Assembly: GCA_017464305.1 (NCBI GenBank)
Contig: JAFUDS010000005.1
Coordinates: 1-64,000 of the forward strand
Length of the DNA stretch: 64,000 nt
Origin: Clostridia bacterium
GTDB lineage: Bacteria; Bacillota; Clostridia; Christensenellales; Aristaeellaceae
Direction: 5' to 3'
Below, in pieces: positions 1,069-18,848 of the stretch. The notes beneath the pieces are model-generated. The model worked only from the letters and a program-made list of their open reading frames with translations. It did no database searches and had not been told where the DNA came from. The position numbers were made by a program, and so were the translations under genes. The stretch's first letter is position 1; the number at the start of each line of letters is the position of its first letter.

Positions 1069-1074
1069 CCTTTC

Positions 1075-2445
1075 TTACCAATTCGTCAGGTTTTTCAATT
1101 CTTTCCTGTAATCCTTGTAGCAGAAGGCAAGCGCCGCTACAGCGGAAATCACGGTGGTGACTGTGGTCGCAAAGACGATGCCATACATGCGGAACAGCCA
1201 ATTCAAGATAAACAGCATGGGAATATATACAATTCCCTTTTCCAGCAGAGATACGAAAATCGCCTGCTTGGATTTGCCCGACGCCTGCAAATAGGTGGTA
1301 CAGATTTGGTAGAACCCAAAGAAGGGCCCGATGACGATGGAGGCCAGCAGGCACACCCGGCCGATGACCAGCACCTCCGGATCATTCAGGAAAGCATTCA
1401 GCAGCTGATCCCGGAAAACCAGGCACAGCAAGGATAAGATCGTTCCAGCCACCACCGCCAGGCCGGTGGTTTTTTTCAAAATCTCCGTCAGCCGCTTCAT
1501 GTTTCGGGCGCTGTAATTAAAGGAAATGGCGGGCTGCATACCCATGCATACGCCCATCACCGTCATGGAGATCATCTGCCCGATGCGGCTGGCCACGCTC
1601 TGGCCCGCCACGGCGATGGACCCATATTGCATCATCAGATTGTTGGCAATCGCCCCAGACACGCTGGCTAAGATGGTAGAAATACTCAGGGGCAGCCCCA
1701 GGCTGATCACCTTTCCCACCACGTCCTTTTTCAAGGATATATCCTTGGGAGAGGCCGAATAGATCTTCCCCTTCGTATGCAGGAAGTAGGCATAATAGCA
1801 AAGGGCAACCACATTGGCCATCACTGTCGCCACCGCCGCGCCAGAAACCCCCATCTTGAAAACGGAAATCAGCAGGGGGTCCAGGGCGATGTTCAATCCT
1901 GTGCCGATCATATTCCCGATCATGGAATCGGTGGTGGAGCCATCGGCCCGGATCAGGGCAGGCACCACATTGGTCAGCATGATCACCGGCGCGCCGATGG
2001 CGATGATGCGCAAATATTCAGCAGTAAAGCCCTGGGTATCCGCGTCCGTGCCCAGCAAGCGGCACACAGGATTCATCAGCGCAAGCACCACGGCAGCAAA
2101 GATGGCCCCAACCAGGATGGCGCCCCAGATCGCAAAGGCGCTGATCTTCTTGATACGGTCATATTCTCCCCGCCCCAACGCCAGGGAAATGGCAGTGCAG
2201 CCACCATTGCCCAGCAATACGCCCAGACCCGAGAGAACGGAAAAGAGGGGGCTGGCCAGGGACACCGCAGCCACTTTGTTCGCGTCCCCTGTCTGGCCGA
2301 TGAAAAACACATCTGCCATATGATAGAGCACGGTCACCAGCATGATCAGAATAGCCGGGATGCACAGCTTCCTGGCCAGTTGCCAGTAATTGCCGGAGCG
2401 CAGCATCTCCTCATTCGTGGTTGATTTCTTTCCTAGCACTTTCAT
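1075..2445 (-). CDS. MATE family efflux transporter
   Basis: Multidrug and toxic compound extrusion protein, 456 aa, about 12 hydrophobic segments in two related halves, the usual family length. Members export organic compounds in exchange for Na+ or H+. Typical features include an early LARKLCIPAILIMLV helix, YHMADVFFIGQ, and the repeat-half motif QSVASRIGQM. The ATG at 2445 is only 1-2 nt from an AAGGAGGG ribosome binding site; the in-frame GTG at 2439 has proper spacing and could be the real start. It is the first gene of a leftward operon with the GH3 gene and is driven by one arm of the divergent operator at 2489-2629. Its co-regulation with an ester hydrolase and glycosidase suggests, as inference, export of an aglycone or phenolic released from the imported substrate. 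Confidence 0.93.
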   Translation of the reverse strand: MKVLGKKSTTNEEMLRSGNYWQLARKLCIPAILIMLVTVLYHMADVFFIGQTGDANKVAAVSLASPLFSVLSGLGVLLGNGGCTAISLALGRGEYDRIKKISAFAIWGAILVGAIFAAVVLALMNPVCRLLGTDADTQGFTAEYLRIIAIGAPVIMLTNVVPALIRADGSTTDSMIGNMIGTGLNIALDPLLISVFKMGVSGAAVATVMANVVALCYYAYFLHTKGKIYSASPKDISLKKDVVGKVISLGLPLSISTILASVSGAIANNLMMQYGSIAVAGQSVASRIGQMISMTVMGVCMGMQPAISFNYSARNMKRLTEILKKTTGLAVVAGTILSLLCLVFRDQLLNAFLNDPEVLVIGRVCLLASIVIGPFFGFYQICTTYLQASGKSKQAIFVSLLEKGIVYIPMLFILNWLFRMYGIVFATTVTTVISAVAALAFCYKDYRKELKNLTNW

Positions 2446-2488
2446 CCCTCCTTAGCGCAGGATGCGTTCCGCCCATCCTGTATTCCAA

Positions 2489-2551
2489 ATTATGATTGAA
2501 ATTGCTTTCCCTGTCTTTTCGTAATCCGATCATTTTTTTCACAAATCCGAC
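2489..2551 (-). promoter_or_regulatory. 21-bp-spaced direct-repeat operator and promoter for MATE-GH3 operon
   Basis: On the minus strand GTCGGATT begins at 2551 and ATCGGATT at 2530, exactly 21 bp apart. A CATAAT -10-like hexamer (2494-2489) begins 36 bp after the second box. No good -35 is seen, as expected for an activator-dependent promoter. The layout is the same at three other promoters in the window. I infer binding by the AraC-type response regulator at 10533-11303, because AraC-family proteins often bind tandem boxes two helical turns apart. Confidence 0.72.
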
Positions 2552-2565
2552 GAGCTCATAAAGAT

Positions 2566-2629
2566 GTCGGATTTCTGTCATTCCTGGTCGGATCAGGTCA
2601 AGAAAAGAACAGCCTTTCTTTGCTATGAT
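2566..2629 (+). promoter_or_regulatory. 21-bp-spaced direct-repeat operator and promoter for esterase-like gene
   Basis: GTCGGAT at 2566-2572 and GTCGGAT at 2587-2593 are 21 bp apart. An extended -10 (TGCTATGAT, hexamer 2624-2629) begins 37 bp after the second box. No convincing -35 is present. It sits back to back with the leftward copy; the two innermost boxes are about 15 bp apart, so one protein could switch both directions. Confidence 0.74.
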
Positions 2630-2660
2630 ACAGTTGAATCGAATTTGAGGAGGTTGCACC

Positions 2661-4772
2661 ATGGCAAAAACCATTTATGATCCCCAATCAGATCCCCGTT
2701 TCCAGCATCCCGTGATTGATCAGGACGAATGGAAGGAAAGGTATTTGCCGGACGGTTCCACGATTCCCTTCCGTTATCTGCACGGCTATTTTGAAGGAAC
2801 GGATGTGAAATTTGCTTTCTGTTTTCCTCCAAAGGATAAATATGAAAATCGTTTCCATCAGTATCTTTCCCCCTTCCCCGGCCCGGACGAGGAGATTGCC
2901 TCCCTGGGGCATACGGGGCTGGAGGATCGGATTGGCTTCGCCCTGCACTGCGGCGCTTACTTCATCGAAACCAACATGGGATCCCATTCCCAGTTTGGCG
3001 GTCAGCGGGATGATCATTTGACCTGGCAATCCTCCGCGGCCGCGGCCGAATATTCCCGGGAGAAGGCCATGGAAATTTATGAGACCGACCAGCGCCCCTA
3101 TGGCTATGTGTACGGTGGCAGCGGCGGCGGATACAAATCCATGGCCTGCATCGAAAACACCCGGGCCTGGGATGGGGCAGCGCCCTATGTCATCGGTTCG
3201 CCCGTTTCCCTTCCGAATACCATTACCATGCACGTTCAGGGCCAGCGGGTGCTGCGCAATGCCTTCCCCAAGATTCTGGACGCTCTGGATGCCGGCGGCT
3301 CCGGCGACCCGTACAAGGAGCTGACCAAGGATGAAGCGGATATGCTGCGGGAATTGACCCGAATGGGTTTCCCGCCACTGGCCTGGTATCTGGAGGCCAA
3401 GGGCGTAAGAGACCCCGGGTCCTTGCCTGTTATCCTGCCCGGCGTCAAGCGGATGGATCCCGGCTATTTCACGGATTTCTGGACCAAGCCGGGCTATGCC
3501 GGCTCCGATCCGGAAAGCTCCTCCTCCAAGGATCATATCGTGTTCCATACCCGGGTCAAATCCGTACATCTACCGGAAAAGGCGACGGAGCGCAAAGCGG
3601 AGGACGGCCTCAACGGCGTGGACGACGCCTGGAAAAAACAGCTGGCCGACGGCAACGGAGCCTATCTGGAGCTGGAGGAGCTGCCCCAGGGCGACAATCT
3701 GTACCTGGAAGGCCTGTCCATGATCTTTGAAAGCGGGGAAGCCAAGGGGGCGAACCTGCTCATGGGCAAGATGATGCGCTATTCCGATCGGGCTGGCGGC
3801 ATCGTGACCATTGGCTCCGCCTACGGCACCAGCGATGTGGGAGAAACGCTGGCCAAGGCGCAGCCCGGCGACGAAATCCTGCTGGATAATTCAGATTATA
3901 TTGCGGCCCAGAGCTACTATCGTCATCAGGTGCCGGAGGACCTCTCCTTCCACGCCTGGGATCAATTCCGGGATGAAAAGGGAAACCCGCTTACGGCCCA
4001 ACGGGCGCCCTTCCCAGTGCCCTTCACTGGCGTAGGCGTGCGGCAGGATGGCGACATTCAGGGCAAGGTCATCAACATCCAGGCCCTGATGGACGAAAGC
4101 ACCTGTCCCTGGTGCGCCGACTGGTGGCGAAACAAGATTATCGCGACGAAGGGGTCCGACGCTGATCACCGCACCTATTTCATGGAGCGGTGCATGCATG
4201 GGGATGTAAGCGCCCTGGGAAACTACATGGTGGTGAATTATGTAGGCGCCCTACGCCAGGCTTTGATCGATCTTTCCGCCTGGGTGGAAAAGGGGATTGA
4301 GCCCCTGAACCGCACCACCTATACCCTGGGAGAGGATGGCCAGATCCATCCCGAGCAGGATGTGAGCAAGCGTTTTGGCCTCCAGGCCATCCCCACCCTG
4401 AAGGCCAATGGGGAAAAGTGTGCTCATGTCAAGGTGGGCGAATGCGTCCGCTTCACGGTGGATGTGGAGGTGCCCATCAGTGCCGGCGTGGTAACAGAGG
4501 TGCTGTTTGCCTCCCGTGAAAAACAGGTGGATGATCCGAATGGCACCTATGCCTCCCAGATGTCACGGAGTGACAGCATTTGGGAAAGCCAGCTGAGCTT
4601 TGAGCGGGGCACCCGGGGAGAAGTCCACACCGCCCACGCCGAAGCCATGGCTTCCTATGATCAGCCGGGGACCTACTTCGCCACCGTCCGCGTCGCCAGC
4701 AACCGGAGCGAGGAGGCGGACCCCTTCACCCAGGTGCTGAACCTGGACCGGGCCCGGATTATTGTATCCTAA
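2661..4772 (+). CDS. Tannase/feruloyl-esterase-like alpha/beta hydrolase with C-terminal Ig-like region
   Basis: A 703-aa protein without signal peptide or membrane segment. Residues 148-158 read YGYVYGGSGGGYKS-like, a nucleophile elbow with Ser154 as likely catalytic Ser. Later acidic (Asp487 in CPWCADWW) and histidine (His513 in CMHGD) residues lie where the Asp and His of a tannase-type triad could be. Residues about 590-703 are beta-rich and look like an Ig/fibronectin-type domain. I recognise the general fold but not a characterised family, so ester hydrolysis is an inference. The gene has a strong ribosome binding site (GAGGAGG, 7 nt), is monocistronic, and is read from the operator at 2566-2629. 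The context (MATE export, GH3, ABC import) fits cytosolic removal of an acyl or phenolic group from an imported glycoside. Confidence 0.6.
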   Translation: MAKTIYDPQSDPRFQHPVIDQDEWKERYLPDGSTIPFRYLHGYFEGTDVKFAFCFPPKDKYENRFHQYLSPFPGPDEEIASLGHTGLEDRIGFALHCGAYFIETNMGSHSQFGGQRDDHLTWQSSAAAAEYSREKAMEIYETDQRPYGYVYGGSGGGYKSMACIENTRAWDGAAPYVIGSPVSLPNTITMHVQGQRVLRNAFPKILDALDAGGSGDPYKELTKDEADMLRELTRMGFPPLAWYLEAKGVRDPGSLPVILPGVKRMDPGYFTDFWTKPGYAGSDPESSSSKDHIVFHTRVKSVHLPEKATERKAEDGLNGVDDAWKKQLADGNGAYLELEELPQGDNLYLEGLSMIFESGEAKGANLLMGKMMRYSDRAGGIVTIGSAYGTSDVGETLAKAQPGDEILLDNSDYIAAQSYYRHQVPEDLSFHAWDQFRDEKGNPLTAQRAPFPVPFTGVGVRQDGDIQGKVINIQALMDESTCPWCADWWRNKIIATKGSDADHRTYFMERCMHGDVSALGNYMVVNYVGALRQALIDLSAWVEKGIEPLNRTTYTLGEDGQIHPEQDVSKRFGLQAIPTLKANGEKCAHVKVGECVRFTVDVEVPISAGVVTEVLFASREKQVDDPNGTYASQMSRSDSIWESQLSFERGTRGEVHTAHAEAMASYDQPGTYFATVRVASNRSEEADPFTQVLNLDRARIIVS

Positions 4773-5038
4773 AGTAGATTTGATAAAAACTCCCCCGCGG
4801 AGCGGGGAGCGAAACCCGATAGATGATCGGATTTCCTACTAAATGCTGATGAAAGCTCCCCCCGCAGAGCGGGGGGAGCAACAAAACCTTTTCGAATCAT
4901 CAAGAGATGATCGGATTTCCTATATTTTTGATCGGAATCCGGACAGAATTTAATTGTGAAAAACGGTAAAATAATCATCGTAAAGCCCCAGGAGGCTTCT
5001 TGAGATCGTCAGGTGAACGGGAAAGGAGACGGAAATTC
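4773..5038 (+). repeat. Duplicated palindromic repeat unit in the intergenic region
   Basis: Two hairpins, 4790-4809 (CTCCCC/GGGGAG) and 4855-4879 (perfect 11-bp stem GCTCCCCCCGC/GCGGGGGGAGC), are each followed by an identical 18-nt stretch AGATGATCGGATTTCCTA (4821-4838 and 4905-4922). Related hairpins occur at 43254-43276 and 51408-51430, so this is a dispersed REP-like element, here in tandem. The first hairpin may also end transcription of the esterase gene. The 3' part of the region holds the operator-promoter of the binding-protein gene. Confidence 0.65.
4910..4972 (+). promoter_or_regulatory. 21-bp-spaced direct-repeat operator and promoter for ABC importer operon
   Basis: ATCGGAT at 4910-4916 and ATCGGAA at 4931-4937 are exactly 21 bp apart. 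TAAAAT at 4967-4972 starts 36 bp after the second box. It has the same geometry as the copies at 2489-2551, 2566-2629 and 11313-11375. The first box lies inside the right end of the REP-like unit. Confidence 0.74.
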
Positions 5039-6874
5039 ATGTCGATTCGGACCAAATGGATTGCGCTGATGACAGCTGTGGTGGTGATGCTGGTGGGCAT
5101 GCAGCTTTACTATGGCAACATCGGCAATCCTGGCGCTGGCAGCGCCAGCCCGGAAACCACCTTCGACTGGTGGATCTACTCCGGTACTTCCTCAGAATAT
5201 TACGATAATTACGCCCAGAACCCCGCTATTCAGTACACGCTTCAGCACGGCTGGGGTCCGGAGGAGAAGGCCATTGCGCTAAACTTCCTTCAGCCCCCGC
5301 CCGGCAGCGAGGATAATAACTACACCACCATGATCGCCTCCGGAGACCTGCCGGATATCATCGACGCCGTAATCAGTGAAGCCCCCGGCGTCATGGTGGA
5401 AAAGGGCTATGCCATCGAACTGACGGAGTATGTAGAACAATATATGCCCAATTACAAGGCCCTGGTGCACTCCAACACCGAGTACCTGTATAACTGCGTC
5501 AGCACCGATGAGGATGGCACCGAGCATTACTACCAGCTGAGTCAGTTGCTGGATGGCTACGATCCCCTGTTCCAGGGCTTCCAATACCGCAGGGATTGGA
5601 TCGTGAAATACGGTGCGAACCCTGAAACCGGCGTAGCCTTCACTGGCGGCTATACTGCCCCTGACGACGTGGATGCCTGGGAGGATGACGTGGTGTTCCC
5701 CAGCTGGTTTGACGAGGCAAAGAAAGCCAAGGCCCTGGAGATCGACCCTGAGTGGGATGGCACAGAGCCCTTCTTCGTCTCCGACTGGGAATGGATGTTC
5801 GACATCTTCCTGCAGGCCCAGGCGGATTTAGGAATCGAGGGCAAATATGCCATCAGCCTGTATTATCCCGGCTACACCTGGTCCGGCGGCCTGCTGAGTT
5901 GCTTCGGCGGCGGCGTGAACGTATGGTATCAGGACGCCAACAATCAGGTGCACTTCGGCGGCAACGAAACACCCTTCAAGACCTACCTGGAATGCATGCA
6001 TCACTGGTATGAGGTAGGTTGGCTGGATCACGACTTTAACCAGCGCACCTCCGACGCCTTCTATCAGATCGACTCTACCTCCGTTCGCCAGGGCCTGATC
6101 GGCATGTGGAATGGTGGTCAGAGCGAACTGGGCGGCCGCCTGGACATGCACGATGGCGGCTGTACCGAAGGAATCTTCGTAGCCGGCGCTGCCTATCCCA
6201 TCAACGACAGCTACGGCCCGGAGGAGTGCCAGTTCGTGGTGCCCAACTGCGTGATGGGCTCCAGCCTCACCAAGGGTGGCATCATGATTACGCCCAAGGC
6301 GGCGGAAAAGGATCTGGCGACGCTGTGCAGCTATCTGGATTACTTCTACACGGAGGAAGGCGGGCTGATCAAGACCCTGGGTCTCAGCGCGGAGCAAGCC
6401 GCGGAATTCAGCAGCAATACCTTCTATGCCGATCATGGCCTGGCAGACGGCGCTTACACCGTGGTGGAAGATGGAACCTATGTGAAGAGCAGCGTGCTGG
6501 CCAACGACAGCGGCCAATTGAACACTGCCGTGGGCTTCAACAAGTGTCCGGGACTCCAGATGGTCGCCACCGTGGATCTGGGTTACGCGGCCTCTTACTC
6601 CACCTCCTTGGCTCGATGGACAAAATATCCCAACACCGGCTTCTTCCAGGGCAGCCGAACCACCAACGAAATGAGCCAGTCCGACGCCAAGGCTTGTGAG
6701 GATATTCACAGCAAGGTGCTGGAATACATGGGCAAAAACTGCGCCAACTTTATCACCGGAAAATCCAACTTTGATAAGGACTGGGACAAGTGGTGCACTG
6801 TGCTGAACAAATACAAGGTAGATCAGGCCATCGAGATTTACCAGTATTATGTCGATCATTATCCCTTCCGCTGA
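5039..6874 (+). CDS. ABC transporter extracellular sugar-binding protein (LplA type)
   Basis: A 611-aa solute-binding protein for the two permeases that follow, probably binding an oligosaccharide. The ATG at 5039 is chosen over an upstream in-frame ATG at 5000 because an AAAGGAG site precedes it and the hydrophobic leader (WIALMTAVVVMLVGM) then starts near residue 7. No cysteine follows the leader, so there is no lipobox; the protein is either released by signal peptidase I or held by an uncleaved N-terminal helix, which is unusual for this class in monoderm bacteria. The mature part is rich in Trp/Tyr, as expected for sugar binding, for example TFDWWIYSG. It is the first gene of an operon under the direct-repeat operator at 4910-4972. 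Confidence 0.9.
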   Translation: MSIRTKWIALMTAVVVMLVGMQLYYGNIGNPGAGSASPETTFDWWIYSGTSSEYYDNYAQNPAIQYTLQHGWGPEEKAIALNFLQPPPGSEDNNYTTMIASGDLPDIIDAVISEAPGVMVEKGYAIELTEYVEQYMPNYKALVHSNTEYLYNCVSTDEDGTEHYYQLSQLLDGYDPLFQGFQYRRDWIVKYGANPETGVAFTGGYTAPDDVDAWEDDVVFPSWFDEAKKAKALEIDPEWDGTEPFFVSDWEWMFDIFLQAQADLGIEGKYAISLYYPGYTWSGGLLSCFGGGVNVWYQDANNQVHFGGNETPFKTYLECMHHWYEVGWLDHDFNQRTSDAFYQIDSTSVRQGLIGMWNGGQSELGGRLDMHDGGCTEGIFVAGAAYPINDSYGPEECQFVVPNCVMGSSLTKGGIMITPKAAEKDLATLCSYLDYFYTEEGGLIKTLGLSAEQAAEFSSNTFYADHGLADGAYTVVEDGTYVKSSVLANDSGQLNTAVGFNKCPGLQMVATVDLGYAASYSTSLARWTKYPNTGFFQGSRTTNEMSQSDAKACEDIHSKVLEYMGKNCANFITGKSNFDKDWDKWCTVLNKYKVDQAIEIYQYYVDHYPFR

Positions 6875-6905
6875 TGCGGGCTGACTCAAGAGGAGGTGTA
6901 ATTTC

Positions 6906-7859
6906 ATGGCAAAGAATTCTGCCGCTCTGACCGGCTCCGCACGGCGCAGCTGGAAAACCGAGCTGAAACGCGACTGGGTTGTCTATCTTCTTTTCCTTCC
7001 CATCATCGTGTATGAAGTTCTGATGCATTACCTGCCCATGTTCGGCATCGTCATGGCTTTTGAGGACTACAATGTGGTGGATGGGTACTTCCACAGCCCC
7101 TGGGTGGGAATGAAGCACTTCGTGGATCTCTTTTCCGGGGAAGATTTCCTGCAGGCGCTGCGAAATACCGTGGTCATTGGCTTGCTGAAATGTACCGTCG
7201 GCTTCGTGGCTCCCATCATCTTCGCCCTGATGCTGAGCTTGATCAACAGCAAAAAATTCAAGCGGATTGCCCAAACCATGTCCTACATGCCGAATTTCGT
7301 GGCCGCGGTCATCGTTTGCTCCCTGTTTACCCAATTCCTGGCCAAGGATGGCCCCTTGACCTTGCTGCTGGCCCGGCTGTTAGGCGCAGAGAATCAGAAC
7401 TGGTTGGCCAATGACAAGCCCCCTGTGTTCTGGATTATCTACACCATGATGGGCATCTGGCAGGGGGTTGGCTGGGGCTCCATCATGTATGTGGCGGCCA
7501 TCTCCCAGGTCAGCGGCGATCTGCACGAGGCGGCGGCCATCGATGGCGCCACCCGGTTGCAGCGGCTGTTCAAGATCACCCTGCCCAACATCCTGCCCAT
7601 GGTCATGATGATGTTCGTTATCGGCATCGGCACCGCCTTCGTGGCCGGGTACGATAACATCCTGCTGCTGTATATGCCCAGCACCTACAATGTATCCGAT
7701 ACCGTATATACCTACACCTATCGCCAGGCCTTTGGCGGCGGTACGTCCAACTACTCCTTGTCCGCGGCCTCCGGTCTGTTCCAGTCCGTGGTCAGCACCA
7801 TCTTGCTGGTCGGGTCCAATTCCCTTTCCCGCAAGGTCGGCGGCAGCAGCCTGTTTTAA
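6906..7859 (+). CDS. ABC sugar transporter permease (LplB type)
   Basis: A 317-aa inner-membrane permease of the CUT1 class with about six transmembrane helices. The EAA loop that docks to the ATPase is at residues 208-230 (EAAAIDGATRLQRLFKITLP). The N-terminus (KTELKRDWVVYLLFLP) is typical of LplB proteins. The gene is 31 nt after the binding-protein gene with a clear AGGAGG site, and 18 nt before its partner permease. No ATPase is encoded in the locus; proteins of this class commonly share a genome-wide MsmX-type ATPase, so that is expected rather than a defect. Confidence 0.93.
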   Translation: MAKNSAALTGSARRSWKTELKRDWVVYLLFLPIIVYEVLMHYLPMFGIVMAFEDYNVVDGYFHSPWVGMKHFVDLFSGEDFLQALRNTVVIGLLKCTVGFVAPIIFALMLSLINSKKFKRIAQTMSYMPNFVAAVIVCSLFTQFLAKDGPLTLLLARLLGAENQNWLANDKPPVFWIIYTMMGIWQGVGWGSIMYVAAISQVSGDLHEAAAIDGATRLQRLFKITLPNILPMVMMMFVIGIGTAFVAGYDNILLLYMPSTYNVSDTVYTYTYRQAFGGGTSNYSLSAASGLFQSVVSTILLVGSNSLSRKVGGSSLF

Positions 7860-7877
7860 GAGAGGAGGGAAATCGAC

Positions 7878-8789
7878 ATGGCAAAGAAGCAACGGAAACA
7901 ACAAGAGTGGGAAAACAACATGGTGGAAACCAAAACCATCGCGGACCGCGTCGTGGATATCATCCTGTATTTGGTCATCGCCCTGGTGGCTCTCTGCAGC
8001 GTTATCCCCATGTGGCATGTACTGATGTCCTCCTTCTCGGATGGCAAATCCCTCCTGGCCCATGTAGGCCTGGTGCTGTGGCCCATCGGGAAATTTACCG
8101 TGGAAGGCTATCGGATGATCTTCCAGAACGCCAGCATCGTCAGCGGCTACATCAACACCATCGTATACACCGTGGCCTTTACCACCATCGGCTTCCTGCT
8201 CTCCGCGGTAACGGGCTATGCCCTGAGCCGGGATACGAAAATGAAGAAGCCCGTGACCTTGGCTTTGATGATCACCATGCTCTTTGGCGGCGGCATGGTG
8301 CCTTCCTACATGGTGCTTCGCGCCCTGGGCTGGGTCGGCACGGTATGGGCCCTGGTGATTCCGGGATGTACCAACTCCATGTACTGCATCATGATGATGA
8401 ACGCCTTTAATTCCATCCCCAAGGAAATGTACGAAGCCAGCCACATCGACGGCGCAGGGCATATTTCCACCCTGTTTGAAATCACCCTGCCTCAGGCCAT
8501 GAACATGGGCGCCGTGATCATCCTGAATCTGAGCATCGGCCAGTGGAACTCCTGGCTGCAGGCCAGCATCTACGTACCGAACAAAAAGGCCCTGTGGCCC
8601 CTGCAGCTGGTCATTCGGCAGATCACCAGCGAAAACGCCAACTTCCTGAATTCCTCTAATCCGGATTACAGCCGCTATTTGATCCAGTTCGCGGTCATCA
8701 TCGCGGCCATCGCCCCCATCATCATCGCCTTCCCCTTCTTCCAGGATAAGATGGAAAAGGGTGTGATTCAAGGTGGGGTTAAGGGGTGA
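7878..8789 (+). CDS. ABC sugar transporter permease (YtcP/CUT1 type)
   Basis: A 303-aa second permease subunit, paired with the LplB-type protein to import the ligand of the 5039-6874 binding protein. It has about six transmembrane helices and an EAA-like loop at residues 186-205 (EASHIDGAGHISTLFEITLP). The start at 7878 follows an AGAGGAGGG site; a downstream ATG at 7920 is less likely. The TGA stop lies within the left arm of the long hairpin at 8786-8833. Confidence 0.93.
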   Translation: MAKKQRKQQEWENNMVETKTIADRVVDIILYLVIALVALCSVIPMWHVLMSSFSDGKSLLAHVGLVLWPIGKFTVEGYRMIFQNASIVSGYINTIVYTVAFTTIGFLLSAVTGYALSRDTKMKKPVTLALMITMLFGGGMVPSYMVLRALGWVGTVWALVIPGCTNSMYCIMMMNAFNSIPKEMYEASHIDGAGHISTLFEITLPQAMNMGAVIILNLSIGQWNSWLQASIYVPNKKALWPLQLVIRQITSENANFLNSSNPDYSRYLIQFAVIIAAIAPIIIAFPFFQDKMEKGVIQGGVKG

Positions 8790-8833
8790 GAAATCCGTGA
8801 CCGCCAGTGGCGGAAATTTCACGGATTTCTCAC
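8786..8833 (+). terminator. Long perfect hairpin at the end of the ABC operon
   Basis: A 15-bp inverted repeat (GTGAGAAATCCGTGA at 8786-8800, TCACGGATTTCTCAC at 8819-8833) encloses a second stem, CCGCC-AGT-GGCGG, at 8801-8813. It begins inside the stop codon of the permease gene. There is no following T-run, so it may protect the 3' end or slow transcription rather than terminate by itself. Confidence 0.6.
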
Positions 8834-8839
8834 AGAGCC

Positions 8840-8985
8840 AATAAGGAGCAATCTCCACAGTGCGTCCGCTGTTACCCGCGCTGAAGCGCGGACAGCTTGC
8901 GCATGGGAGTCGTTACCCAAATCAAAGATTTGGACGACTCCACATGTGGAGTTGCGACTATATTGGCGACCGGGCGAAATGTTTT
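8840..8985 (+). repeat. Tandem bulged-hairpin structured element of unknown function
   Basis: The gene-free stretch 8790-9108 holds two consecutive hairpins with the same plan. The first (about 8868-8896) pairs GCTGT with ACAGC around CCGCGC-TGAA-GCGCGG. The second (8906-8941) pairs GGAGTCGT with ACGACTCC around CCAAATC-AAA-GATTTGG. Both carry an unpaired TAC just inside the outer stem on the 5' side, although their stem sequences differ. A CACATGTG palindrome follows at 8941-8948. Conserved shape with changed sequence suggests an RNA or a palindromic mobile repeat. I do not recognise a named family. Confidence 0.5.
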
Positions 8986-9004
8986 TCGACCGCCCCTCCC
9001 CTAT

Positions 9005-9033
9005 GCCTGCGCGTTCCGCGCAGGCTATTTTTT
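9005..9033 (+). terminator. Rho-independent terminator upstream of the sensor kinase gene
   Basis: GCCTGCGCG (9005-9013), loop TTC, CGCGCAGGC (9017-9025), then TATTTTTTT. This is a 9-bp perfect GC-rich stem with a T-run. It ends transcription from the ABC operon and the structured element and insulates the two-component genes. Confidence 0.88.
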
Positions 9034-9035
9034 TC

Positions 9036-9064
9036 TTTTCAGCTTGTTCTATTTGGTGTATAAT
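9036..9064 (+). promoter_or_regulatory. Predicted promoter for kinase-regulator operon
   Basis: TTTTCA (9036-9041), 17-bp spacer, perfect TATAAT (9059-9064), 45 bp before the kinase start. It lacks the 21-bp repeats, so the regulator pair probably has basal, non-autoregulated expression. Confidence 0.55.
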
Positions 9065-9108
9065 GTTCAAAAATCGACCTGTTTCGCATACTCATAGGAA
9101 AGGAAGAA

Positions 9109-10536
9109 GTGATTGTGAAGGCGATTGCGTCCCTGAAGAAGGCATTCTGGAACAAATATCGACATCTTGCGCTGTTTCGCCGGCTGCGCCCCCGAATCAT
9201 GGCCATGATGCTGACCCTGGTGCTGCCTGTCAGCTTAACCTGCCTGATCATTTCCATCATCTCTATGCTGCAAGGCCGGGAGCTGATCGAAATGAACAGT
9301 CAGAACGCCTTCTCCCTGTTCCTGGATCGAATGGCCATTCGATACGAGAATGGAGCCATCGACCCGCTGGACGGCTTCCCAAGCCAGGTAGCGAATGACC
9401 TTTCCGCGTTGGTAAATTCCGTGCAGGAGGAATTTCATGGAGAAATGTATGTATCCCGGGATGGTCAGGAAGCCTGGCGGGTGTTCCCGAACGGCATCAC
9501 CATTCCGATGGAAGAGAGCTATGAATCACTTTCCCGCTCGGGGCATATTTTTTCCTGGCAGGATAATGACAACCGATTCCAGGCCATGGCCGTTTTTCAC
9601 TACGATTTTTCCCTGTCCATGTTACCTGTCCCCTTTTGGATCGGTATCATTCTTTCCCTGTTGACAGCGCTATTTTGCCCCATCCTGTACAAGCGGTTGA
9701 AATTGGATATCCTGGATCCCCTATCCACGCTGGACACAGCGCTGGAAGGTGTCAAGAATGACAGATCCTATCGCATCCCTCCCCAGCCAGGACGGAACAG
9801 TGACGAATTCCTGCATCTGTTCGAAGAATTCAACATCATGGCGCAGGAGGTTCAGGCCTCCTACGAAAAAGACGTCAAAATGCTGGAGACGGAAATGGAT
9901 AACCTGCGCCTCCAGGTGAATCCTCATATGCTGCTCAATTCCTATAACATGATCTATGCCCTGGCGGAATCGAAGAATTATGCCGTAATTCAGGATTACA
10001 CCCTCTGCCTGGTGGATTACTTCCGCTATGTGCTGCGGAGAGGACAAAACCTGGTTTCCGTCCAGCAGGAGCTGGAATTCGTGGATAACTTTATCCGCAT
10101 CCAGCGCATCCGTTTTCCCGGGCGATTTTCCTACGTGTATCAGGCCGAGGAGGACGCCATGCAGGCCATGATCCCACCGCTGCTGATCGAAAACTTTGTG
10201 GAGAACGCCATCAAATATGCCCTGGATCCCACCAGGCCGATTGAGATTGTGGTCACCGCCCGGACGGAGGAGGAAGAAGGAGAATCGAAGCTGCATATTG
10301 CCATTTCGGACACGGGCAGTGGCATCCGGCCGGAAGTGCTGGAAAAGCTGAAGGCCCGGGAGCCCTATGTGGACGAGGCAGGCCAGAAGCATATCGGCAT
10401 CTGGAACTGCGTTCGCCGGATTGAACTGTTCTATGGCGAAGAGGGAGAGATCCATTTTTCCAGCGGGATGGATCAGGGGACACAGATCTATCTGATCATT
10501 CCTTGCCGGAGGGCAGAAGAGGAGGAAGAGCGATGA
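9109..10536 (+). CDS. YesM-type sensor histidine kinase
   Basis: A 475-aa membrane sensor kinase paired with the overlapping response regulator. Transmembrane segments are near residues 31-53 and 174-194, flanking an extracellular sensor domain of only about 120 aa. Then come a HAMP-like linker and a His_kinase-type H-box with His273 in NPHMLLNSYN; the family norm is NPHFLYNTLN, so this box is divergent. An ATP-binding domain follows with the N-box LIENFVENAIKYAL and G-box ISDTGSGI. The start is GTG at 9109 (a second GTG at 9115 is possible) after AGGAAAGG. It probably senses an extracellular sugar or the liganded binding protein encoded upstream; that is inference from the family. Confidence 0.92.
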   Translation: MIVKAIASLKKAFWNKYRHLALFRRLRPRIMAMMLTLVLPVSLTCLIISIISMLQGRELIEMNSQNAFSLFLDRMAIRYENGAIDPLDGFPSQVANDLSALVNSVQEEFHGEMYVSRDGQEAWRVFPNGITIPMEESYESLSRSGHIFSWQDNDNRFQAMAVFHYDFSLSMLPVPFWIGIILSLLTALFCPILYKRLKLDILDPLSTLDTALEGVKNDRSYRIPPQPGRNSDEFLHLFEEFNIMAQEVQASYEKDVKMLETEMDNLRLQVNPHMLLNSYNMIYALAESKNYAVIQDYTLCLVDYFRYVLRRGQNLVSVQQELEFVDNFIRIQRIRFPGRFSYVYQAEEDAMQAMIPPLLIENFVENAIKYALDPTRPIEIVVTARTEEEEGESKLHIAISDTGSGIRPEVLEKLKAREPYVDEAGQKHIGIWNCVRRIELFYGEEGEIHFSSGMDQGTQIYLIIPCRRAEEEEER

Positions 10537-11303
10537 ATATTCTGATCGTGGATGATGAGCAATTAGCGATTCAGGGGATGCTGGACGGGATCAACTGGGA
10601 CCTGTTGGGCTTTGACAAGGTGTTGACAGCCAACGGCTACACGGAAGCCGTGAACATCATCAAAAACACCTACATCGACATCATGGTCAGCGATATTGAG
10701 ATGCCGGGAGAAAGCGGGCTGAAGCTTATCAAGTATGTCAACGAGCACAGCCAAAATACGGAATGCATCATTCTCACCTGCCACGATGAGTTCGACTATG
10801 CCCGCACAGCTGTGGGACTCAACTGCCTGGAATACCTGCTGAAGCCCATTCGCTATCCGAAGCTGACGGAGGTACTCCTGCAGGCGAAGGAGAAGGTGGA
10901 AGCCCGGCGACAGAACGAACAGATGAAGCAATACGGTCAACAATATATCCGGTCCCTGTCCCAGGAAACCAAGGGCGATACCCTGAACGCCCTGGAAACC
11001 GCCGTCAGCTATATTGACGCCCATCTGGCGGAGGAGCTCTCCGTGCGGGATCTGGCGGCGAACAGCTATATCAGCGCGGATCACCTGACCCGGCTCTTCA
11101 AAAAGAAATACGGCATGACGGTTTCGGAATATATTCAGGATAAGCGCATTCGCCTGGCTGGAGAGCTGCTGCGCCGGGAGGATGTGACCATCTCCATGGT
11201 GGCCAACACCGTAGGCTTCGGAAATTATTCCTATTTCACGGAGCAATTCAAGAAGCATTTCGGCCTTACGCCTCGGGAATACCAGCGGCAGGCCAGGAAG
11301 TAA
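10533..11303 (+). CDS. AraC-type (YesN-like) DNA-binding response regulator
   Basis: A 256-aa regulator with an N-terminal receiver domain (acidic residues DDE at 7-9, phosphorylatable Asp54 in SDIEMPG, Lys102 in LLKPI) and a C-terminal AraC/XylS double helix-turn-helix (about 155-256, containing VANTVGFGNYSYFTEQFKKH). It lacks the long middle region of classical YesN proteins such as the one at 33416. The ATG at 10533 overlaps the kinase stop (ATGA), showing translational coupling. I infer that it binds the four 21-bp-spaced TCGGAT repeats at 2489-2551, 2566-2629, 4910-4972 and 11313-11375, since it is the only AraC-type protein in this part of the window and the sites flank its neighbours. 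Confidence 0.94.
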   Translation: MNILIVDDEQLAIQGMLDGINWDLLGFDKVLTANGYTEAVNIIKNTYIDIMVSDIEMPGESGLKLIKYVNEHSQNTECIILTCHDEFDYARTAVGLNCLEYLLKPIRYPKLTEVLLQAKEKVEARRQNEQMKQYGQQYIRSLSQETKGDTLNALETAVSYIDAHLAEELSVRDLAANSYISADHLTRLFKKKYGMTVSEYIQDKRIRLAGELLRREDVTISMVANTVGFGNYSYFTEQFKKHFGLTPREYQRQARK

Positions 11304-11312
11304 ACTCAAGAT

Positions 11313-11375
11313 GTCGGATTTCCGGGGTTTTTGATCGGATTACATAAAGCGCTCCTTCTCCGCCCATGGCATAAT
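11313..11375 (+). promoter_or_regulatory. 21-bp-spaced direct-repeat operator and promoter for secreted-protein gene
   Basis: GTCGGAT at 11313-11319 and ATCGGAT at 11334-11340 are 21 bp apart, and CATAAT at 11370-11375 starts 36 bp after the second box. It begins 10 bp after the regulator stop codon and drives the 11431 gene, possibly with read-through into the glycosidase operon. Confidence 0.75.
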
Positions 11376-11430
11376 AAGCGCAACAACACGGGGAAACCAT
11401 CGTTTTCCCACGAGAAGGAGGAAATGTTCC

Positions 11431-12501
11431 ATGAAAAAGCTGATCTCCCTGCTGCTCTGCCTGGCGCTGAGTCTGTCCCTGGTTTCCGTGTCCTTTGCGG
11501 AGGACGTTCCCAACCTCGCCAACACCTATTATTCCTATGGCTATGACGTAGGCTTCTGGATGGACTACTTCTTCCACTTCTATGATGAAGTGCCCGGCAT
11601 TGGCCGCGTGTTCTACGCCGGCTATGCCCTGAATCAGATCGTGTACACCGGTACCTACGAGGTCATCGCGGAGGAGCGGGCCTACCAGTGCTGGCCGGAT
11701 CGGGCTACTTCCGAAGCAGCGGAGGAAGGCGCTGAAATCCCCACTGGCACCGCGCCTTACACTGTGATCTTCTATGATTTTGACGGCAACGAGATTGATC
11801 GCTGCGCTCTGGATGAAACCCACCTGTACAATGACATGGAAACGCTGACCGGTATTGGCGGTGCAAATGCCGTTTACGACTTGGATACAGATCCTGAAAA
11901 TTCCGCTTTCGCCAAGGAATATGAAGGCGAACAGGCCGTGGTCGTGCTGAGCCTGGTGGATCCCGACGACGATACCGCCACCCTGGAGCTGAAGGTCAAT
12001 GGCAAATATGATGATCTGGTGGTCCTGTACGTGGAAGGCACCTATTCCATGAATGAGGATCAGACCGAGATCACCCTGACCCCCGCTGATGACAGCGATC
12101 CTGGCGCCACCGTGACCAAGAATGAGGACGGCACCTACACCTACGTTTCCACCGACGGCGACGAAGTGGTCCTGGTGGAAGTGAAGGGCGCGGAAGTGGC
12201 CTATCAGCTGAAGGGCTCCATCCCCGTGCCTGGCATGGACGGTGTGAACGCCGATCTGATCTGCGACCTGCTGGATGACAACACCGCCGTGATCTACGCT
12301 GACTTCATGGGCAACCGCATGGATATCGACAAGGGCACCTACGAAATCGATATGGCTACTTATTCCTTCGTGCTGCACCTGGAAACCGCTGGCGATCTGA
12401 CCACGGAAGGCTACGCTGCCGACATGGTACTGAACTACAAGGCTGACAATGTAGATCCCTTCGGCGCCATCGAACAGACCCTGGCCTTCGTGGCGGAATA
12501 A
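11431..12501 (+). CDS. Secreted beta-rich protein of unknown function
   Basis: A 356-aa protein with a signal peptide (MKKLISLLLCLALSLSLVSV, cleavage likely after SFA before EDVP) and no lipobox. The mature part is acidic. The first third is aromatic-rich (YYSYGYDVGFWMDYFFHFYD) and the rest alternates short strands with Asp/Gly turns, suggesting a lipocalin-like or repeated beta-sandwich fold. Two stretches look similar in design: KYDDLVVLYVEGTYSM and TAVIYADFMGNRMDIDKGTY. I do not recognise a family. It has a strong ribosome binding site (GAAGGAGG) and its own direct-repeat promoter, so it is a dedicated member of the sugar regulon. It could bind the substrate or present it to the importer, but this is speculation. 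Confidence 0.85.
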   Translation: MKKLISLLLCLALSLSLVSVSFAEDVPNLANTYYSYGYDVGFWMDYFFHFYDEVPGIGRVFYAGYALNQIVYTGTYEVIAEERAYQCWPDRATSEAAEEGAEIPTGTAPYTVIFYDFDGNEIDRCALDETHLYNDMETLTGIGGANAVYDLDTDPENSAFAKEYEGEQAVVVLSLVDPDDDTATLELKVNGKYDDLVVLYVEGTYSMNEDQTEITLTPADDSDPGATVTKNEDGTYTYVSTDGDEVVLVEVKGAEVAYQLKGSIPVPGMDGVNADLICDLLDDNTAVIYADFMGNRMDIDKGTYEIDMATYSFVLHLETAGDLTTEGYAADMVLNYKADNVDPFGAIEQTLAFVAE

Positions 12502-12547
12502 TCCAAAAACGAAATAACAACCTGCGCGAAGCGCGGTTGGAAACAGC

Positions 12548-12575: not shown

Positions 12576-12594
12576 TCAGAAGGAGAAAACGAAT

Positions 12595-14142
12595 ATGCGG
12601 CAATATGAGACCTTTGAGTTGACTTTTCAAGGAGATACGCTATCAGAAAATTGGGCACAGATCGATTTGACAGCGGAATTTACCTGTTGGGATATCACCA
12701 AAACAGTGAGGGGTTTTTATGATGGCGAGGGGCGATATATCGTTCGCTTCCTGCCCGAGCAGGCGGGAACCTGGCATTGGAAGGTGACCGGCTGCGTGGA
12801 GGCTGAGGGAGAAGAAACCTGCCAGAAGGCACGGGATCAGCATGGGCTGGTGAAGGCGGTGGATACCCATTTCGAGTATGAGGACGGCCAGCTCTTTATC
12901 CCCTTTGGCACCACGGTGTACGCCCTGGCCTCCCAGGAGGATGCCCTGGTGGAGCAAACCTTGGCCAGCCTGAAAAATGCCCCCTTCAACAAGGTACGCA
13001 TGTGCGTGTTTCCCAAGGATTACGATTACAACAAGAACGAGCCACCCTATTACGCCTTTGAAAAAAACACGGATGGCTCCTGGGATACCCGCAGGCCCAA
13101 CATTCCCTTCTGGCAGCGGTTTGAAAGCATCCTGGATCGCATCGGTGAAATGGGTATCCAGGTGGATCTGATTCTGTTCCATCCCTACGATCGCTGGGGC
13201 TTTGCCAAGATGCCGCAGAAAGATAATTTGTACTATCTGGATTATCTGCTCCGCCGCTTCTCTGCCAAGCCCTATATCTGGTGGTCTTTGGCCAACGAAT
13301 ACGATATCAACATGGATGCTAAATCCCTAACGGATTGGGAAGAAATCGAGGAGTATGTGGCAGGCCATGATCCCTACCATCATCTGCTGTCCAATCACAA
13401 CTGCATGTGCTTCTGGGATCACACGCGGCCCAACATCACTCATGCCAGCCTGCAAACGAAAGCGCTGACCGAAATTCCTCGATGGATCAGGGAATATCAA
13501 AAGCCAGTGGTGATTGATGAATGCTGCTATGAGGGAAATATTCAGTATCTTTGGGGAAGCATCTCCGCCCAAGAAATGACCCGCCGCTTTTGGCGATGCT
13601 ATGCCAGCGGCGGCTACTGTACCCACGGGGAAACCTTCTTATCCGATGACGAAATTCTATGGTGGGCCCGAGGCGGACAGCTCAAAGGTCAAAGTCCTCA
13701 ACGCATTGCTTTCCTGCGACAGATCATGGAAGACCTGCCCGGGCCCCTGACGCCTTCCTACGGAGGACTTTCTGCCATCGCGCAAATGGAGGAAGCGGAG
13801 CTTGAATCTGCTCTGGCCACTCTGCCAGAAGAAATGCGACATGCCATGTCTCTTTTTGGCAAGAGCATCCATCGCATGGATCTTCAAAACCGTTCCCTTC
13901 ACCTGGCAGGCGAACATACCTGGGAAGCCCACTGCGGAGAGGAAGCATACCTGACGTACTGCGACCTGCAATGCTATGGCAAACAGACTTTGAATCTGCC
14001 GGAAAACAAGACCTATCGCATTGAGCTGATCGATACCTGGGAAATGACCCAGTCTGTTCTTCAGGAATCTGCCAGCGGTGCAACCACGGTTTCACTGCCT
14101 GCCAAAGAAGGCATGGCCCTCCTGGCCATCCGCATTGGATAA
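12595..14142 (+). CDS. Glycoside hydrolase with DUF5060, TIM barrel and DUF5605-like C-terminus
   Basis: A 515-aa cytoplasmic enzyme. Residues 1-75 form a DUF5060-type beta domain (FTCWDITKTVRGFYDGEG). Residues about 95-395 form a clan-A-like TIM barrel with Glu235 in WSLANEYD as likely acid/base and Glu309 in VVIDECCYEG as likely nucleophile. The C-terminal 90 residues are a beta domain of the DUF5605 kind. The architecture resembles DUF4038/GH140-like and GH5-like putative glycosidases of pectin and xylan loci; the substrate is unknown. It is the first gene of a four-glycosidase run at 12595-21107 and has an AGAAGGAG site 7-9 nt before the ATG. Confidence 0.8.
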   Translation: MRQYETFELTFQGDTLSENWAQIDLTAEFTCWDITKTVRGFYDGEGRYIVRFLPEQAGTWHWKVTGCVEAEGEETCQKARDQHGLVKAVDTHFEYEDGQLFIPFGTTVYALASQEDALVEQTLASLKNAPFNKVRMCVFPKDYDYNKNEPPYYAFEKNTDGSWDTRRPNIPFWQRFESILDRIGEMGIQVDLILFHPYDRWGFAKMPQKDNLYYLDYLLRRFSAKPYIWWSLANEYDINMDAKSLTDWEEIEEYVAGHDPYHHLLSNHNCMCFWDHTRPNITHASLQTKALTEIPRWIREYQKPVVIDECCYEGNIQYLWGSISAQEMTRRFWRCYASGGYCTHGETFLSDDEILWWARGGQLKGQSPQRIAFLRQIMEDLPGPLTPSYGGLSAIAQMEEAELESALATLPEEMRHAMSLFGKSIHRMDLQNRSLHLAGEHTWEAHCGEEAYLTYCDLQCYGKQTLNLPENKTYRIELIDTWEMTQSVLQESASGATTVSLPAKEGMALLAIRIG

Positions 14143-14160
14143 AGAAAAGAGGAAAATAGC

Positions 14161-16560
14161 ATGATGAAGCATATGGATACATCCCTTTCTTCCCGGAAAC
14201 GAGCAGAGCTGCTTTTGCAGGAAATGACCCTGGATGAAAAAATGGCCCAGCTGGTGGGTGTCTTTGCCCTCAAGGGCTACGAGGATCGAATGGTCCCCTT
14301 TTTCAAAAACGGCATAGGCCAAATCAGCACCCTGGAATTCCGCGCCTGCGACAGCATGGAGGAAATCGCGGCATGGCAGCGGCAGCTGCAGACCTTGGTG
14401 ATGGAAAACAGCCGCCTGGGTATCCCCGCCGTGTTCCACATGGAGGGCCTGTGCGGGCCCCTGATGCAGGACACCACCACCTTCCCCTCCGGCGTCAGCC
14501 GAGGATCCTCTTTTGACCCTGAATTGGAACGGAAGATCGGCGAAACCGTGTCCCGCCAGGAGGCAGCCTTCGGCATCACCCAGATTTTAGCCCCGGTGCT
14601 GGACATCTCCCGGGATTCCCGCATGGGCCGTCAGTGCGAGCCCTATGGTGAAGACCCCACCCTGGCCGCCGCCATGGGCGCCGCCTACACCCATGGCATC
14701 CAGGAAACCACCACGGACGGCCGCACGCCAGACGCCGCCGCCAAGCACTTTTTCGGCTTCCATCACTCCTCCGGCGGCATCCACGGAGCCCATGTGGACG
14801 CGGGGGATCGGCTGCTGATGGAGATTTATGGCAAGCCCTTCCAGGCGGCCATCACCGAGGCGGGGCTCAAGGGCGTCATGCCGTGCTACGGCTCCCTGAA
14901 TGGCCTGCCCATCCATGCGTCCAAGCATTATTTGACGGAGATTCTCCGTGATGAAATGGGCTTTGAGGGCGTCACCGTGTCGGATTACGGCGGAGCCAGC
15001 AACGCCTATGAATACCAGGGCATTGGCGAAACCATGGGCGACGCGGGCTTGCGGTGCCTGAAAGCCGGGCTAGACGTGGAGCTGCCCATGCCCAAGGCCT
15101 ATGCTGATGAGCTCAAGCAGAAGTTCGCGGAGGGCAAAGCGGATATCTCCCTGCTGGACAGCGTGGTCCTGCGGGTGCTGGAGGCCAAGTTCCGCATGGG
15201 TCTGTTTGAGCATCCCTTCTCCTTGACCGGGGAGGAACTGGAAAAAGCCGTGCATCACGACGAGGATGAGCGCCTGGCAGAGCAGAGCGCCCAGGAAGCC
15301 CTGGTGCTGCTGAAAAACGACGATGCCCTGCCCCTGACCGGCAAGGAAAAGACCATCGCGGTTTTCGGTCCCGCGGCGATGAACGCCCGGTATTATTTCG
15401 GCGGGTACACCCATCTTTCCATGGTGGAAGCGCAACGGGCCGCGAAGAACTCCATGGCCGGCGTGAAGGGCAACGGAGAAGTAGACCAGGTATCCTATGT
15501 GCCCGGCACCGGCGTGGAGGACGACGAAAACGAGCGTTTCCATGAGGTGCTGCGGAAACTGAAGCCGAATTGCCTCAATCTGGTGGAAGCGCTGAAGGAA
15601 GCCATGCCGGATAGCCGCATTCTGTGGGCCCAGGGCTATCACAAGGCGGGGGCGGACGAAAGCCTGTTCGCTGAAGCGCTGGAGATGGCCAAGGAAGCGG
15701 ATGTGATTCTTCTAACCCTGGGCGGCAAGAATGGCTCCGGCTCCATTGCCACCATGGGCGAGGGCGTGGACGGCACGGACATCAACCTGCCCGCCTGTCA
15801 GGACGCCTTCATCCGGGAAGCCAAGAAGCTGGGCAAGCCCTTGATCGGCCTGCACTTTGATGGCCGGCCCATCTCCAGTGACACGGCGGACGAATACCTG
15901 GACGCCATCCTGGAATGCTGGAATCCCGCCGTTTATGCCGCGGAGGCTGTGGTGGATGCGCTGCTGGGCAAACTGAACCCCTCCGGGAAAATGCCCCTGT
16001 CCACCGCCCGGCAGGCGGGCCAGATCCCCGTGTATTACAATCATCCCAACGGCTCCATGTGGACCCAGGGCCCCAGCATCGGCTTTAACGATTATGTGGA
16101 CTGCTCCCACCGGCCCCGTTACTGCTTCGGCCACGGCTTAAGCTATACCAGCTTTGAGTACAGTGCTTTGACACTGGATAAAAAGGAAACCAAGCCCTTT
16201 GCACCGATCGAAATCTCCCTGACGGTGAAAAACACCGGGAAGTGCGAGGGCACGGAGGTTGTGCAATTGTATGTAAAAGATGTCCACGCCTCCATGACCA
16301 GACCCCAAAAGGAATTGCAGGGCTTTGCCAGGGTTTCTCTGCTGCCTGGCGAAGAAAAGAAGGTGAGCTTTGCCCTCGCTCCCAGCCAGATGGCCTTCCT
16401 GGATGAAGACATGCGCTGGAAGATTGAACAGGGCGCATTTGAGGTGCAAATCGGTTCTTCTTCAGAGGATATCCGCCTGAAGGATTCCTTCACCGTTACC
16501 GAAAACGCCTGGGTAGAAGGCAAAAGCCGTGCATTCTACGCCTTGGGGAAAATGCAATGA
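14161..16560 (+). CDS. GH3 glycosidase (beta-glucosidase/xylosidase-like)
   Basis: A 799-aa complete family 3 enzyme, without signal peptide. The N-terminal barrel carries AKHFFGFHHSSGG and the nucleophile Asp275 in VTVSDYGG. The central alpha/beta sandwich starts near LVLLKNDDALPLTG, and the C-terminal fibronectin type III domain has GHGLSYTSFEYS and VKNTGKCEGTEVVQLYV. It likely trims terminal beta-linked sugars from imported oligosaccharides; sequence alone does not separate xylosidase, glucosidase or arabinosidase activity. It follows the previous glycosidase by 18 nt in an operon. Confidence 0.94.
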   Translation: MMKHMDTSLSSRKRAELLLQEMTLDEKMAQLVGVFALKGYEDRMVPFFKNGIGQISTLEFRACDSMEEIAAWQRQLQTLVMENSRLGIPAVFHMEGLCGPLMQDTTTFPSGVSRGSSFDPELERKIGETVSRQEAAFGITQILAPVLDISRDSRMGRQCEPYGEDPTLAAAMGAAYTHGIQETTTDGRTPDAAAKHFFGFHHSSGGIHGAHVDAGDRLLMEIYGKPFQAAITEAGLKGVMPCYGSLNGLPIHASKHYLTEILRDEMGFEGVTVSDYGGASNAYEYQGIGETMGDAGLRCLKAGLDVELPMPKAYADELKQKFAEGKADISLLDSVVLRVLEAKFRMGLFEHPFSLTGEELEKAVHHDEDERLAEQSAQEALVLLKNDDALPLTGKEKTIAVFGPAAMNARYYFGGYTHLSMVEAQRAAKNSMAGVKGNGEVDQVSYVPGTGVEDDENERFHEVLRKLKPNCLNLVEALKEAMPDSRILWAQGYHKAGADESLFAEALEMAKEADVILLTLGGKNGSGSIATMGEGVDGTDINLPACQDAFIREAKKLGKPLIGLHFDGRPISSDTADEYLDAILECWNPAVYAAEAVVDALLGKLNPSGKMPLSTARQAGQIPVYYNHPNGSMWTQGPSIGFNDYVDCSHRPRYCFGHGLSYTSFEYSALTLDKKETKPFAPIEISLTVKNTGKCEGTEVVQLYVKDVHASMTRPQKELQGFARVSLLPGEEKKVSFALAPSQMAFLDEDMRWKIEQGAFEVQIGSSSEDIRLKDSFTVTENAWVEGKSRAFYALGKMQ

Positions 16561-16631
16561 TGGAATCATCCTGAAAGAACGGTTTGTGGAGATCAGAATT
16601 TCAATCAATCATCTATGAGGGAGCGTAAAAT

Positions 16632-18839: not shown

Positions 18840-18848
18840 GGTTTTCAT

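Follow-up and report, generated by a model that had tools for sequence, protein, structure and literature searches.

The DNA analyzed here, hereafter the window, comprises the first 64,000 nucleotides (nt) of contig JAFUDS010000005.1 (C1) in a draft Clostridia genome (2.53 Mb, 69% complete, 51 contigs) and carries a cassette of genes built around a sensor kinase and a response regulator, in which four promoters are each preceded by a pair of TCGGAT-type boxes. On the minus strand lies a gene for a MATE transporter (1075..2445), next to which comes a GH3 gene that is whole on a second contig, C8 (L037:5229-7475). The remaining genes are on the plus strand. The first encodes a 703-amino-acid (aa) protein (2661..4772) that matches no Pfam family at E≤0.001 and keeps the name esterase-like from a preliminary description of this DNA. 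It is followed by a presumed solute-binding protein (5039-6874; no Pfam match, assigned by position and conservation) and two ABC permeases identified by Pfam (6906-7859 and 7878-8789), an LplABC-like arrangement spanning 5039..8789. The kinase (9109..10536) and regulator (10533..11303) genes come next, and then a gene for a 356-aa protein (11431..12501) with a signal-peptide-like N terminus as judged by eye and no Pfam family at E≤0.001. The preliminary description had counted this secreted-protein gene as a target by itself; it does belong to the set, with the correction that a same-strand run of glycoside hydrolase genes (GH140/apiosidase-like, GH3, GH2, and α-L-rhamnosidase-type; 12595..21107), assumed to form a single transcript with it, comes after. 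The regulon substrate is probably a pectin-like plant glycan, judged from the neighboring GH140-like, GH3, GH2, and rhamnosidase-type genes alone.

The regulator had been called a 256-aa AraC-type protein. A C-terminal AraC helix-turn-helix (HTH) is indeed present (PF00165, 1.5e-23; PF12833, 4.8e-22), but this is not a plain AraC protein, since it has an N-terminal receiver (REC) domain (PF00072, 9.4e-21) and a PF06580 kinase of its own (PF06580, 1.2e-19; HATPase_c PF02518, 1.4e-12). D54, the phospho-acceptor aspartate, and K104, the conserved lysine, are invariant in both regulator alignments (A3 and A4). Judged by domain make-up and by their place after two ABC permease genes, kinase and regulator are a YesM/YesN-type pair; no NCBIfam model reached its cutoff among the best 25 of 111 for the regulator and 17 for the kinase. 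Presumably the closest known counterparts are the YesM/YesN (YesL-MN) and XynDC-type systems of Bacilli, in which, as here, a PF06580 kinase and a REC-AraC regulator stand beside an LplABC-type transporter. The likeness to YesL-MN extends to a DUF624 (YesL-like) gene found under the operator in relatives. The segment S[AP]DHLTR, which by AraC/MarA anatomy should form the recognition helix of the first HTH, occurs in 9/9 aligned regulators of at least 50% identity and in 0/3 at 31 to 36% identity. An identical regulator protein is encoded by a Clostridia metagenome-assembled genome (MAG) from roe deer omasum (L148).

Just before the kinase gene, pattern scans found a terminator-like hairpin (9005-9025, plus strand) and a consensus-like, box-free promoter, TTTTCA-17-TATAAT (9036-9064, plus strand), in scans whose totals were close to the shuffled mean. 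The kinase-regulator pair may have this separate promoter and hence already be made when induction starts. By eye, several hairpin-forming inverted repeats appear to lie between the second permease gene and the kinase gene (8790-9030).

Inspection of the sequence bore out, for 4/4 promoters, the statement that TCGGAT-type boxes lie exactly 21 bp apart. The pairs and their spacing are real, although the positions first given for the boxes were each off by one; likewise, the -10 hexamers are those originally named, but the distances of 36, 37, 36, and 36 counted one too many and are corrected to 35, 36, 35, and 35 nt from the first base of box 2. Unit 1, serving the MATE-GH3 operon, occupies 2489..2553 on the minus strand, with boxes starting at 2550 and 2529 and the -10 CATAAT at 2494-2489. 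Unit 2, before the esterase-like gene (2564..2629, plus strand), has boxes at 2567 and 2588 and TATGAT at 2624-2629, and it is the one unit with the 36-nt distance. Unit 3, before the solute-binding protein/ABC operon (4908..4972, plus strand), has boxes at 4911 and 4932 and TAAAAT at 4967-4972; its second box reads TCGGAA rather than TCGGAT, and AATAAT, 3 nt beyond TAAAAT, gives an equal -10 score. Unit 4, before the secreted-protein/glycoside hydrolase run (11311..11375, plus strand), has boxes at 11314 and 11335 and CATAAT at 11370-11375.

A lone extra TCGGAT box lies on the plus strand at 4827 (within 4821..4840), exactly 84 bp (4 × 21) before box 1 of unit 3 and within an 18-base stretch that is, by eye, identical to part of the unit 3 operator; a GC-rich hairpin (4850-4885) comes after it. 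This box is also present in L148 and is not found at that place in L149, L155, L156, or L158. Possibly it represents a partial duplication of the unit 3 operator.

With zero mismatches, the motif TCGGATTT-N13-TCGGA occurs at four distinct places in the whole draft, precisely these four promoters (listed as eight rows since contig C8 duplicates the region). Because only these four distinct exact matches exist genome-wide, the four-promoter pattern lies beyond chance. The bare pair TCGGA-N16-TCGGA was uninformative in the same draft (13 rows versus 13 for the reversed control), and with one mismatch allowed the longer pattern was unspecific, matching in 58 of 61 genomes. We therefore placed weight on the full motif and on comparison, and a profile was used in place of the one-mismatch pattern.

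Regulator orthologs of 70 to 82% identity were found in four genomes of the same genus (G009, G027, G035, and G021). Gene order is kept (MATE, GH3 / esterase-like, solute-binding protein, two permeases, kinase, regulator, secreted protein, GH140-like, GH3), with extra genes inserted in relatives, e.g., a rhamnosidase-type gene between the esterase and solute-binding protein genes in G027; the cassette is split across two contigs in G021, and both of its ends are contig-cut in G035. Lack of conservation at orthologous promoters had been named in advance as an outcome that would speak against a shared operator. The boxes are kept in the promoters of the four relatives, all of which have a counterpart of unit 1. 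Among 18 promoters from the five genomes, the best -10 begins at +35 in 17 (in 4 of these, a hexamer 3 or 5 nt beyond scores equally) and at +36 in one. The aligned operator reads ATGTCGGATTTnTGGnATTTTTnGTCGGATTTCAnAAAGAA, in which TCGG, TCGGA, and AG are invariant in 18/18. Where promoters diverge, the distance from first box to first box varies (17, 22, 28, 28, and 28 bp), but the 21 bp within each box pair and the register of the -10 stay constant; the conserved unit is therefore the single promoter and not the pair. In all four relatives the first gene behind the "esterase" promoter is a small membrane-type gene, which the window genome lacks at this place. The G035 copy, the one tested, is DUF624 (YesL-like) by Pfam.

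The preliminary description had also suggested a whole-genome scan for the two-box motif. We ran a sequence-only profile, R1, made from 18 operators, over the 61 genomes, and all of its strong matches fell at promoters of this cassette: 24 rows, or 20 distinct sites once the C8 repeat is removed, at E≤1.4e-6. All 20 lie in the five genomes with a regulator ortholog of at least 70% identity, and the next best match anywhere in the 61 genomes has an E of 0.0095. Beyond the four promoters, the window's own genome has no strong R1 match among the 107 best candidates scored (next E, 0.046). Two of the 20 sites were outside the model; they form a divergent pair on another G021 contig, upstream of the MATE and DUF624-like genes. 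One of these has its best -10 at +35 (TATCCT, 2 mismatches), and in the other TAAAAT at +35 is tied with TATAAA at +33.

The comparison was widened to 78 loci of named genomes: 21 with a regulator of at least 70% identity, 5 at 51 to 57%, and 52 others. Strong R1 sites (51 rows, E≤5.3e-5) were found in 21/21 of the closest loci, four of which are training records, several of which are close relatives of each other, and one of which (L148) is nearly the window itself; outside the training records, the count is 17/17. None of the 57 loci with a regulator below 70% identity reached E≤5.3e-5 with R1. A strict count required exact TCGGAT and TCGGA boxes at the 21-bp spacing plus a -10 hexamer, at +35 or +36, that departs from the consensus at no more than one base; it gave 36 places in 21/21 of the closest loci, 4 places in 2/5 of the loci at 51 to 57%, and 0 in the 52 others; exact boxes with a -10 at any other spacing from 15 to 29 occurred 0 times across all 78 loci. 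The four more distant places comprise three exact sites in L171, one each ahead of its homologs of the esterase-like, solute-binding, and secreted-protein genes; the fourth precedes the solute-binding protein gene of L169, a MAG labeled Blautia. With filters off, a 63-kb search scored the L169 site and two of those in L171 at E values of 0.0011 to 0.0026 and the third L171 site at 0.17. In a de novo comparison of this cassette's own set, a tandem 7-mer was common to 5/5 loci at spacing 21, compared with at most 3/5 at any other spacing from 12 to 42. In the MAG L166 (near 10001-10764) the regulator frame appears shifted, with stops in the given frame, yet the locus has three strong operators.

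The position of the -10 was followed over 55 distinct sites, which take in the R1 training records together with close relatives and are not 55 independent events. Left out were duplicates (L161 10775, L172 10777, and L152 2371) and weak or distant sites (L169, two in L171, L181, and L186); the window's four sites enter the count through their L148 equivalents, and the weak site L157 2072 (E, 0.027) was retained. In 53/55 sites the best TATAAT match begins at +35 (41 alone, 7 tied) or +36 (5). The two exceptions, one solute-binding promoter each in L165 and L160, have a better hexamer at +41 or +40. The mean TATAAT mismatch is 1.53 at +35 and 3.24 to 5.05 at every other offset from 24 to 47. 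The half-sites are direct repeats, ATGTCGGATTT ... TGTCGGA, 21 bp apart.

The claim that none of the promoters has a good -35 holds for the 55 sites together, with 1, 2, 3, and 4 matches of 6 in 17, 21, 12, and 5 sites, no better than the 7.0, 22.4, 18.8, and 5.8 (plus 0.9 with 5 matches) of shuffled spacers; for the MATE promoter, a consensus scan does give an AAGACA-17-CATAAT match of 9/12. Where a -35 would lie, A34 is present in 55/55 sites and G35 in 54/55 (first base of box 1 counted as 0), an invariant A and a nearly invariant G that fall 13 to 14 nt into the second repeat. Such a near-fixed distance to the -10 might be expected if the boxes were part of a promoter recognized by an alternative sigma factor, or of a conserved leader RNA. 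We regard either as barely credible here. A -35 element would not sit as far away as box 2, whose first base precedes the -10 by 35 nt; the box occurs twice, at a 21-bp distance, and the -10 is of ordinary type. Against a leader RNA stands the position of the elements, upstream of the predicted transcript.

These observations make it highly probable that the four units are operators of the adjacent YesN-type response regulator, which would jointly activate the cassette. The earlier proposal of a single regulon joining the MATE-GH3 operon, the esterase-like gene, the ABC operon, and the secreted-protein gene is supported by the orthologous promoters, the profile scan, and a natural control described below. 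Its further suggestion, that the protein encoded at 10533-11303 binds the boxes, is upheld to the extent that conservation and the same control make this protein the presumed binder; binding itself is inferred.

Several points weigh against this reading. Under strict thresholds, the esterase, solute-binding protein, and MATE genes are each found in the same 5/61 genomes; the cassette travels as a unit, and co-occurrence alone therefore cannot single out the regulator. At 69% completeness the draft may be missing further regulon targets, and the R1 scan scored at most 107 of the best first-look candidates per genome under strict filters, so that weak sites can escape. The related sites are nonindependent observations. 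Among loci with regulators at 51 to 57% identity, L167, L170, and L173 show no clear site; in L173 a single pair has two mismatches and its -10 at +37. The contigs of all three are short and yielded no solute-binding homolog. When pairs with up to two mismatches are counted, 21 bp is not outstanding in the five loci of this class (L171 has 3 pairs at 21 and 3 at 25), and only the exact form stands out there at that spacing. Finally, in three other YesN clusters (19, 7, and 5 loci) no word was outstanding at 21 bp, and the YesN family at large does not obviously share the 21-bp layout.

The boxes could instead be real operators of another factor, e.g., the second kinase/regulator pair of the window (27766-29547 and 33320-34876) or an unlinked AraC-type protein. 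Whole-cassette co-occurrence by itself does not name the binder, and each genome has many AraC-type proteins. Nevertheless, no strong profile match was found elsewhere in the genome, including around the second pair, and in L171 three operators persist within 19 kb that also carry homologs of the adjacent kinase and regulator. The natural control is provided by G009, whose contig C47 (L244) carries a paralogous cassette (esterase, 53% identity; GH3, 52%; solute-binding protein, 35%; permeases, 51%; MATE, 41%). Within the 20 kb fetched, there is no kinase match, and the regulator finds just one match, a 366-aa protein in which AraC HTH models hit but no receiver domain is present. R1 finds no match there, and the six two-mismatch box pairs are all intragenic. 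A paralogous cassette that lacks the kinase/regulator pair thus has no boxes, and the boxes therefore follow the regulator and not the targets. We consider control by another factor very unlikely.

If the adjacent regulator is indeed the binder, a sugar signal would lead the YesM-type kinase to phosphorylate D54, and two phosphorylated regulator molecules would occupy the tandem half-sites on one face of the DNA. The downstream molecule would lie against RNA polymerase and substitute for the missing -35 contact, and the MATE-GH3 operon, the esterase-like gene, the ABC uptake operon, and the secreted-protein/glycoside hydrolase run would be switched on jointly. With the first base of the -10 hexamer set at -12, the box starts fall near -68 and -47. 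These positions are close to those of araI1-araI2 at araBAD, direct-repeat half-sites 21 bp apart that end beside the -35 and from which AraC contacts RNA polymerase; AraC differs in being one-component, arabinose-binding, and looping and in its half-site sequence. It would also be conceivable that the adjacent regulator binds and represses or only tunes the promoters. This we judge very unlikely indeed, as the sites are upstream of the -10 and not over it and the -35 is missing, which is an activator layout; in addition, the available text of a Caldicellulosiruptor study infers that AraC-type two-component regulators with upstream tandem repeats are activators (PMC8579813).

Returning to activation by the adjacent regulator, we lean slightly toward a broader reading in which the arrangement is a transferable promoter code: a YesN-type regulator and TCGGA-21-TCGGA-AG-(-10 at +35) would have stayed together as a single activation unit, lacking a -35 and strict in register, at regulator identities as low as about 52% and as far as the Blautia-labeled MAG, with S[AP]DHLTR reading the boxes and a single-locus regulon readable from sequence. 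The near-fixed register and the defined regulon make target prediction feasible, with 21 loci of named genomes at or above 70% identity, many of them rumen MAGs. The carriers are gut bacteria of plant-eating animals, in which this sensor-switch pair appears to turn on plant-sugar genes, and the motif shows which genes probably act together on one plant glycan.

The preliminary description knew of no published motif of this form. The form itself, tandem repeats of about 21 bp for REC-AraC regulators, is already known from two reports, as far as their available text goes (PMC3878776, PMC8579813). In the first, the direct repeats of 16 Bacteroides hybrid regulators lie 21 bp apart on average, and those of the Bacteroides thetaiotaomicron hybrid two-component systems (HTCS) are read as the sites of two monomers on one DNA side, two turns apart (PMC3878776). 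On the same partial text, the HTCS are alike in pairing REC and AraC-type domains in regulators of glycan loci with ~21-bp direct repeats; here, in contrast, kinase and regulator are separate proteins in Clostridia, the -10 register was followed over the 55 sites, and the likeness drawn is one of spacing. The second, again in its available text, describes tandem repeats upstream of promoters for 3/5 AraC-type two-component regulators of Caldicellulosiruptor, searched at 21- or 32-bp periodicity (PMC8579813). The AraC-family two-component regulators of Caldicellulosiruptor bescii, e.g., BxgRS and AviRS, as that text presents them, are likewise local regulators of ABC sugar transporter/hydrolase genes; they differ in species and gene cassettes and are likened by layout (PMC8579813). 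No report of the TCGGAT motif or its regulon was found in the open-licence PMC literature searched, and both look new. YesM/YesN-type pairs are numerous in plant-fiber-degrading Clostridia, with 19 matches to the regulator, whole or part, in the window's own draft at E≤0.001 (some of them doubled by redundant contigs), and the literature searched yielded no described operator for this regulator lineage.

A spacing of 21 bp was also tried as a general YesN rule, in a search of 40 further regulator regions together with L043 and L044 for tandem repeats with a -10 behind them. Before merging, 21 bp was the most frequent spacing (33 hits; next, 19). The rule was rejected as unshown after overlapping hits had been merged, which left 11 sites at 21 bp, the same number as at 11, 18, 22, 24, and 42 bp, and 15 sites at 15 bp.

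The first ~19.8 kb of C1 (window positions 1-19821) recur in contig C8 (26 kb; L037 and L038), with one difference in 13,593 bases compared and zero in the other 6,228, and C8 reaches 6.4 kb further upstream than C1. The draft is partly redundant in other places as well, as contigs C6 and C34 also give the same regulator match. Downstream of the cassette, the second pair of the window consists of another PF06580 kinase (27766-29547) and a long REC-AraC regulator (33320-34876) whose GGDEF-like middle is weak (23.4 bits against a Pfam cutoff of 24.5). This pair lies close to a rhamnogalacturonan-lyase-like gene (PcRGLX, 25169-27769).

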